Below are positions 692-41,061 of a DNA stretch of 44,892 nt, piece after piece. The DNA is from Bacteroidota bacterium (lineage in GTDB: Bacteria > Bacteroidota > Bacteroidia > Palsa-948), in contig JACQAL010000033.1 in NCBI GenBank assembly GCA_016195025.1, positions 1-44,892 on the forward strand, in the 5' to 3' direction. A model generated the notes under the pieces. It was not told where the DNA came from, made no database searches, and saw nothing but the letters and a program-made list of their open reading frames with translations. The position numbers were made by a program, and so were the translations under genes. Positions within the stretch are counted from its first letter, which is position 1, and every line of letters begins with the position of its first letter.

Positions 692-988
692 TTAGTTATT
701 ATTTGTTTTTACATTTTTTGCAACGAATAGTGCCGTTTGAGACGTCTCACAGTAAGTTTGAGACGTCTCACAGCAAGTTTGAGACGCCTCACAGCAAGTT
801 TGAGATTTCTCAAAATAAGTTTGCGCTTTCTCTAAATAAGTTTGCGCTTTCTCCCGGTGAAGCGGAGAATACTCCAACAGCGCCAGAGATGCCTCAAGGT
901 AACTTTCCATTAACTCAAGATAAATTTGAGATGACTGAATTTTATTTTCTTCTTTTCCCGATTTCATTTTTGCTTGCCTTGAATTCAT
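692..988 (-). CDS. Short heptad-repeat protein encoded by a 21-bp array
   Basis: 98 codons, ATG at 988. After a charged leader the protein is a run of about ten 7-residue units: YLELMES, YLEASLA, LLEYSPL, HREKAQT, YLEKAQT, YFEKSQT, CCEASQT, CCETSQT, YCETSQT. The third-position Glu is kept through units that have otherwise diverged, which favours this frame over the equally open plus-strand frame (FETSHSK units). A promoter-like pair (TTTG, 20-base spacer, TACCTTTA) ends four bases before the ATG and a four-half-site operator lies just upstream, so it may be a regulated leaderless gene. The periodicity could give a short helix with Glu on one face. Function unknown. The alternative is that the array acts at DNA level and the ORF is incidental. 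Confidence 0.5.
   Translation of the reverse strand: MNSRQAKMKSGKEENKIQSSQIYLELMESYLEASLALLEYSPLHREKAQTYLEKAQTYFEKSQTCCEASQTCCETSQTYCETSQTALFVAKNVKTNNN
735..944. repeat. 21-bp tandem array, about 10 units
   Basis: Ten head-to-tail units of exactly 21 bp. Units 1-6 (735-860) are close copies starting GTTTG; units 7-10 (861-944) are degenerate but stay in register. Units 1 and 2 contain the perfect 10-bp palindrome GAGACGTCTC, unit 3 has GAGACGCCTC and unit 4 GAGATTTCTC. The period equals two helical turns, so the dyad cores would lie on one face of the DNA. It also equals seven codons, so most frames stay open. There are no spacers, so it is not a CRISPR array. Confidence 0.9.
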
Positions 989-992
989 ACTA

Positions 993-1024
993 TAAAGGTA
1001 AAACGCCCTTTCATTATTTGCAAA
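993..1024 (-). promoter_or_regulatory. Candidate promoter of the heptad-repeat ORF
   Basis: On the minus strand TTTG (1024-1021) is followed after exactly 20 bases by TACCTTTA (1000-993), one base from the Bacteroidota -7 consensus TAnnTTTG. The ATG at 988 follows after four bases, which would make the transcript almost leaderless. The four-half-site palindrome at 1031-1074 lies directly upstream of the -33 element. Confidence 0.5.
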
Positions 1025-1030
1025 TGGTTT

Positions 1031-1074
1031 TGCAGTATATTTCATACTGCACATGCAGTATTTTTTATACTGCA
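1031..1074. promoter_or_regulatory. Four-half-site palindromic operator
   Basis: Four perfect 8-bp half sites are arranged symmetrically: TGCAGTAT (1031-1038), 5 bases, ATACTGCA (1044-1051), CA, TGCAGTAT (1054-1061), 5 bases, ATACTGCA (1067-1074). The whole 44-bp block is a palindrome about its CA centre. It lies between the minus-strand promoter at 993-1024 and the plus-strand LuxR-type gene at 1181, where a cooperative dimeric repressor or activator could control one or both. The small LuxR-type protein is the obvious candidate ligand, but that is inference. Confidence 0.7.
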
Positions 1075-1763: not shown

Positions 1764-3773
<2,010 letters not shown>

Positions 3774-40653: not shown

Positions 40654-40685
40654 AGATAGGACTTACGCAAAAGTTTTGTGAGTAT

Positions 40686-40758
40686 TGTCATTTCGACCAG
40701 AGGGAGAAATCTCGTATGTTTGGCACAAAGGAGATTCCTCGCTTCGCTCGGAATGACA
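40686..40758. repeat. Composite palindromic element, relative of 37109-37187
   Basis: TGTCATTTCGA and TCGGAATGACA outer arms, GAGAAATCTC and GAGATTCCTC inner arms. Its translations give the well-known spurious peptides VIPSEARNL and CHSERSEES, which mark this repeat family. It lies between the DUF5723-like gene and the 21-bp array and could act as a terminator for the former. Confidence 0.85.
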
Positions 40759-40788
40759 CCGTTTTGCGAAAGTGCTGAAAGAAAGGAA

Positions 40789-41061
40789 TTCAACCCATGC
40801 AGCCATGCCTTTATTGCCCGGAGCCATCCATGCAACCCTTGCAGCCATCTGTTCAATCCATGGAGCCGTGTGTGCAACCAATGGAGCCATCCATTGAATC
40901 CCCGGAGCCATCTGTTCAACCGATGGAGCCATCCATGCAACCCTTGCACCCATCCGTTTAATCCTTGCAGCCATGGATTCAACACATGCAGCCCTGCATT
41001 CAACCCATGGAGCCAGCTGTGCAATCAATGGAGCGTTGCATTGAACCGAAGCAGCCCCGTC
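40789..41061. repeat. 21-bp tandem array, 13 units
   Basis: Thirteen head-to-tail 21-bp units. Most start TKCAA and contain the dyad ATGGAGCCAT or a close variant (ATGG-AG-CCAT). Several minus- and plus-strand frames stay open, giving heptads such as HGLNRWL, VEQMAPG and FNPWSHL, so frame openness is not evidence of coding. The array ends one base before the stop codon of the orphan gene at 41063. Unit sequence differs from the array at 735-944, but period and dyad core are shared. No gene is supported in 40654-41062. Confidence 0.93.

Follow-up and report, generated by a model that had tools for sequence, protein, structure and literature searches.

What does a run of short tandem repeats do when it stands directly before a gene, and is such a run particular to one locus or part of a wider class? 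The question is raised by one end of the window, the whole 44,892-nucleotide stretch analyzed here (contig JACQAL010000033.1 of the Bacteroidota bacterium assembly GCA_016195025.1), where ten 21-bp units precede gene P0004. On the minus strand, two operator dyads (1074-1054 and 1051-1031) are followed by a promoter-like site, an ATG at 988, the units from 937 to 728, the stop of the array open reading frame at 692 and, after a 14-base gap, the ATG of P0004 at 677 (Table 1). The promoter-like site is made up of TTG at 1023-1021, a 20-nt spacer, and TACCTTTA at 1000-993, with TAGT left before the ATG, and comparable sites precede the arrays at G3_103, G3_46, G009_29, and G087_28. This layout bears out the preliminary description, which had read from the letters a symmetrical operator at 1031-1074, a -33/-7 promoter ending four bases before the ATG, and a ten-unit array 14 bases from the next gene.

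The operator consists of two 21-bp palindromes and is nearly unique: in the 3.5-Mb genome, only one further site lies within 2 mismatches, with exactly 2, and the reversed operator used as control gave zero matches at the same tolerance. The array unit occurs nowhere else in its own genome when 3 mismatches are allowed. Within the array, the five or six 3' units (735-853) are strongly alike, and the four 5' units are degenerate.

Table 1. Features of the two array loci in the window
Feature	Position	Strand	Details
Two operator dyads, TGCAGTAT-N5-ATACTGCA	1031-1051 and 1054-1074 (1031..1074)	.	23 bp apart; 21 bp each
Promoter-like -33/-7 site, Bacteroidota type	993..1024	-	TTTG, 20 nt, TACCTTTA; between operator and array
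Array, ten 21-bp units in register	728..937	-	core consensus GAGACRTCTCAAACTTACTGT, dyad TTTGAGACGTCTCAAA
Open frame across array	692..988	-	98 aa; no selection evident on its protein sequence
Gene P0002, stand-alone LuxR/GerE-type HTH, 93 aa	1181..1462	+	Pfam PF00196, E=7e-16; divergent from array
Gene P0004	1..677	-	225 aa in window, continued on contig C62 to ~235 aa; no known family
Sibling array, 21/42-bp pitch	40788..41056	-	unit TGGCTCCATGGGTTGAATGGA; 3' side of P0005
Gene P0005, 273 aa	41063..41884	-	second array-bearing family; 18 matches in own genome

Gene families that carry a 21-bp array

P0004 had been taken for an orphan gene, which proved wrong, since it belongs to a multicopy family with about 14 paralogs in its own genome (the family profile matches 16 times, counting two fragments of members split at contig ends). 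The window copy itself leaves the contig at base 1, the rest lying on contig C62. With a cutoff of E<=1e-8, 20 of 395 genomes from the class have relatives; a relative also occurs in a "Bacteroidetes bacterium" metagenome-assembled genome, and none were found in a plasmid collection, phages, or viral contigs. Searches of Pfam, NCBIfam, PHROGs, and PADLOC gave zero family matches, solved structures offered no convincing match, and no DNA-binding domain is recognizable in the protein. A structure model built from the window protein and one aligned relative (pLDDT 39) predicts, with low confidence, N-terminal helices and C-terminal strands. P0004 shows no relatedness to P0005 by hhalign, and none to L111 was found.

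Arrays accompany this family almost without exception. An upstream array of period 21, 42, or 63 was found within 1 kb of 44 of the 46 relatives examined, mostly within 400 bp, with distances measured from the matched region; the same criterion picked out 21 of 400 random 1-kb windows (5.2%) in a control sample of 400 kb of stretches from the window's own genome. The P0005 family keeps its array on the opposite side, downstream in 17 of the 18 members with enough 3' flank and upstream in none. The preliminary description had suggested a search of relatives for operator and array; the array was found in these 44 cases, and the operator motif beside relatives of the GerE-type HTH gene at G003:C46 and G003:C103. 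The G003:C55 copy (L049) is one of just two P0004-family members that have no array; it shares with a related member, G000:C18 (L047), an operator-like dyad close to the gene start, in the forms GAGTGTACACTC, twice, and GAGTGTTCACTC.

In addition to these two families, the 400-kb sample held about 13 more arrays of period 21, 42, or 63, about one per 30 kb, from which we estimate by extrapolation that the whole genome carries on the order of 100. Such periods account for 13 of the 18 sampled arrays with a score of at least 30. Several adjoin other unrecognized genes with a C-terminal domain of beta-sandwich type (CarboxypepD_reg in L106 and L114; a weak fn3 in L111), and some adjoin ordinary genes. 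Arrays near apparently ordinary genes lie at 3801-4031 in L105, 11690-12000 in L107, 3968-4092 in L113, and both 3498-3607 and 17270-17347 in L118. The repeat before P0004 is part of a large, apparently undescribed class in these bacteria, in which dozens of genes of unrecognized families each have a private 21-bp array. Separately, positions 40668-40770 of the window contain a dispersed element (TTGTCATTTCGACC...GGAGATTCCTCGCTTCGCTCGGAATGAC), about 100 bp long, that recurs next to array modules, with copies upstream of the C78 array (L067) and after the C49 gene (L060).

Between distant loci, unit sequences are wholly different. Related arrays were found in only 6 of 192 pairs with gene identity below 70%, and above 80% detectable array sequence is common to 7 of 9 pairs. 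Since array similarity tracks gene similarity solely above about 70 to 80% identity, array and gene are coinherited, with arrays evolving fast. At C41 and C58, gene and array are duplicated at 98% identity as far as 34 bp past the array, beyond which the flanks are unrelated; at C2 and C78, genes 95% and leaders about 82% identical accompany arrays that are weakly alignable. Arrays are thus carried along with their genes and diverge more quickly than the flanking DNA. The C41 and C58 copies (L130 and L138, both in G000) both sit at contig ends and amount to a recent duplication of the whole module. A mobile element with defined ends was considered and rejected, because these blocks and those of C2/C78, although duplicated, revealed neither terminal repeats nor target duplications. 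In the orthologous f4 arrays of L079 and L093, the 5' ends are nearly identical and an approximately 80-bp block nearer the gene differs, with sequence closely alike on both sides of it, which looks like block replacement within the array. The gene family is scarcely ever without a 21-bp array of its own, and yet the sequence of this array is freely replaced; the implication is that selection acts strongly on the geometry of the DNA, not on its sequence.

Peptide, RNA, or DNA

The preliminary description had proposed that the array frame is a real, regulated product, a peptide of Glu-centered heptads. The regulated part of this claim holds, since the operator motif recurs and promoter-like sites precede arrays, but the peptide gene does not, since the units diverge without regard to reading frame, the very outcome that the same description had named as refuting it. 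In the 20 arrays that have just one open frame, the first, second, and third codon positions show variability of 0.265, 0.269, and 0.268, respectively, and the share of synonymous changes is 0.257 for open frames versus 0.252 for closed ones. In the window array, single-base codon differences in the proposed frame comprise 16 synonymous and 47 nonsynonymous changes, compared with 31 and 92 in another frame; the synonymous bias expected of a protein-coding heptad repeat is not seen. The conserved Glu codon, which had been read as a sign of coding, has a different source, because GAG (9 of 10 units) is paired with a CTC arm that is also conserved, so that it forms one arm of a DNA dyad, GAG-N4-CTC. 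Moreover, stops interrupt all three gene-strand frames in sibling arrays (G091_5, C19, and palsa, and C57, C72, C19, C41, and C68 of the P0005 type), and the putative products have no common composition or pattern across arrays. A translated heptad-repeat peptide thus seems highly improbable, even though gene-strand frames are open in 35 of 44 arrays against 26.2 +- 2.8 expected (29 on the antisense strand) and the array is in frame with the gene, of which it would form the N terminus, at G003:C46 (L063) and G000:C2 (L064).

The dyad symmetry is not confined to the window. Tested against column-shuffled units, dyad symmetry is in excess (p<0.05) for 24 of the 44 arrays of P0004 type (mean z 1.84) and for 8 of the 26 others (mean z 1.36), a significant dyad being absent in about half. 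In a rival reading, the array would act as RNA, a chain of small hairpins or repeats in a transcribed leader, bound by a protein as in type III toxin-antitoxin RNA. The array probably lies within a leader, with the promoter upstream, its units are private as RNA antitoxins are, and it folds better than shuffled sequence (z -3.6), which is what any dyad array would give. However, double changes that affect a stem are compensatory at a frequency (0.39) no higher than that of slid controls (0.31 to 0.41), G.T is not favored over A.C on the gene strand (105 versus 167), there is no Rfam match, P0005-type arrays sit 3' of their gene, and a strict 21-nt pitch has no obvious reason in RNA. Hairpin covariation was rejected, being not above control, although individual loci such as G003:C46 looked covarying by eye. 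Adding the neutral drift of spacers described next, we consider an RNA-level array unlikely.

The strongest single piece of evidence comes from one locus of a relative, not from the window array. Four species of one genus share an orthologous locus at which CGTACA recurs as a motif with spacings of 42 or 63 bp (one of 64); relative to the ATG it stands at -48, -90, and -153 or -132, among other positions, and the occupied positions vary by species. Across the three species whose sequences align well, the columns of the motif are 91 to 100% identical, and in the two pairs with the more distant species the spacers are 59 to 62% identical, compared with 60 to 62% at third codon positions. Neutral spacers together with a kept motif and pitch point to protein sites on one face of B-DNA, not to a peptide or an RNA fold, and the four-species array may accordingly be read, from its pattern of conservation, as DNA-level sites on a two-turn lattice. 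Beyond this locus, the spaced motif was found at one second locus only, in G123. In the four-species example the array appears to lie upstream of the promoter, and at the P0004 locus it lies downstream, so that no single regulatory geometry covers every case.

The same observations bear on whether the arrays do anything. Nonfunctional minisatellites, generated when replication or repair copies segments of two turns and hitchhiking with duplicating genes, would agree with the fast turnover and arbitrary unit sequence, with gene and array blocks that duplicate jointly, and with a density of about one array per 30 kb sampled, some near ordinary genes. They fit poorly with near-universal presence on one family-specific side, with a motif and spacing kept against neutral spacers, and with the dyad excess, and we regard them as unlikely. 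Should the arrays have no function, one would still have to account for a copying process whose step is exactly two turns.

Operator, regulator, and a candidate module

If the array is a set of protein sites, the neighboring stand-alone regulator is one candidate occupant. The closest relatives of P0002 within the genus include three divergent neighbors of arrays (G003:C46, C103, and C16). At G003:C46, a dyad AGTAC-N5-ATACT (AGTAY) occurs twice at 23-bp spacing, compared with AGTAT-N5-ATACT twice at 23 bp in the window, and G003:C103 has AGTGC-N4-GCACT. From this recurrence, the operator dyads are most likely binding sites of the divergent GerE-type HTH protein P0002. Since this operator is unrelated to the array unit, the array would serve something other than P0002, and the array as a GerE operator was ruled out at the window locus by the separate conserved operator.

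Elsewhere, LytTR- or XRE-type small regulators stand near other arrays, and still other arrays have none in the examined flank. The general proposal that an array is the polymeric site of a neighboring regulator of GerE, LytTR, or XRE type draws on the many arrays that such regulators adjoin and on the binding of LytTR proteins to repeats at 21-bp pitch (PMC6193735). Nevertheless, we consider it improbable, because the window GerE neighbor already owns its unrelated operator, the type of regulator varies among loci of equal array pitch, and several arrays, including that of the four-species locus, have no such neighbor in the examined flank.

The reading that we prefer, tentatively and as something still short of probable, is a regulated module whose private array acts as DNA and is likeliest bound by the product of its own gene. 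The window locus would be one among many such modules in its genome. Each would pair a small gene of an unrecognized family with a private array, whose roughly 6 to 15 sites keep exactly to a 21-bp lattice, equal to two helical turns; a stand-alone HTH or LytTR regulator often adjoins it. The array would work as a series of in-phase, often dyad-symmetric protein sites that could be filled side by side. At the window locus, P0002 would bind both palindromes and control the -33/-7 promoter, which would read through the array into P0004. The likeliest occupant of the array would be the product of the adjacent array-bearing gene, because the array is private to its module and this gene is its sole constant partner, and the outcome may be self-addressed autoregulation or a local nucleoprotein patch.

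Against this proposal count the lack of a recognizable DNA-binding domain in P0004, its poor structure model, the half or so of arrays with nonsignificant dyads, the arrays beside ordinary genes, and the differing order of array and promoter noted above. The pairs C2/C18 and C2/C57 of the P0005 type, whose genes have 88 to 97% alignable identity and whose arrays are unrelated, fit poorly with a product that recognizes a fixed sequence. More doubtful is the broad form of the proposal, that Bacteroidota genomes hold dozens of self-addressed modules in which each unrecognized small protein binds solely its own fast-evolving two-turn-lattice array. If true, it would amount to many protein-DNA pairs, each private with respect to the others and, as far as we found, without earlier description. 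The array-bearing families supply many natural replicates per genome of how protein-DNA specificity shifts without cross talk, and they offer an entry point to several protein families of unrecognized function.

Comparison with known systems

Plasmids carry iteron and partition-site arrays, in which sites of about two turns, often dyads, stand in tandem and in helical phase beside the gene of their binder. By analogy these are arguably the nearest in logic to the arrays described here, which differ from them in being chromosomal and many per genome, with no Rep or Par protein recognized.

LytTR regulators of the HdrR/BrsR systems bind 9-bp direct repeats 12 bp apart, a 21-bp pitch (PMC6193735). 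Both cases have sites at this pitch beside small regulators, and they would share an autoregulatory logic; the 21-bp centre-to-centre spacing is found here as well. However, the LytTR repeats are two in number, have a common consensus, and lie just upstream of the promoter (PMC6193735), whereas here there are 6 to 15, private to the locus and, before P0004, downstream of the promoter; the window neighbor is of GerE type, and LytTR genes stand near few other arrays.

In ToxIN, a type III toxin-antitoxin system, ToxI comprises about 3 to 6 RNA repeats that form pseudoknots, and the toxin is an endoribonuclease (PMC8860590). The likeness lies in locus-specific tandem repeats beside a small protein gene (PMC8860590). 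In contrast to ToxIN, the arrays show no sign of structured RNA repeats by covariation, G.U preference, or Rfam, P0004 has no toxin-family match in Pfam, NCBIfam, PHROGs, or PADLOC (its structure model being too poor for comparison with the ToxN/AbiQ/CptN/TenpN fold), and one family has its array on the 3' side.

BrickBuilt of Porphyromonas gingivalis resembles our arrays in being intergenic and tandem, with repeats of about 23 nt, and in occupying many loci of a Bacteroidota genome (PMC4596501). It forms a single repeat family that has terminal inverted repeats and is not tied to a particular gene (PMC4596501), unlike the private units and fixed gene families here; where a BrickBuilt-like MITE would place one unit at many genomic sites, the window unit is unique and the arrays of distant paralogs are unrelated.

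In the open-access literature, we found no description of such private arrays. Phased tandem sites have precedents as a mechanism, and because the arrays have the defining features of none of the systems compared, we regard the class as new in kind.
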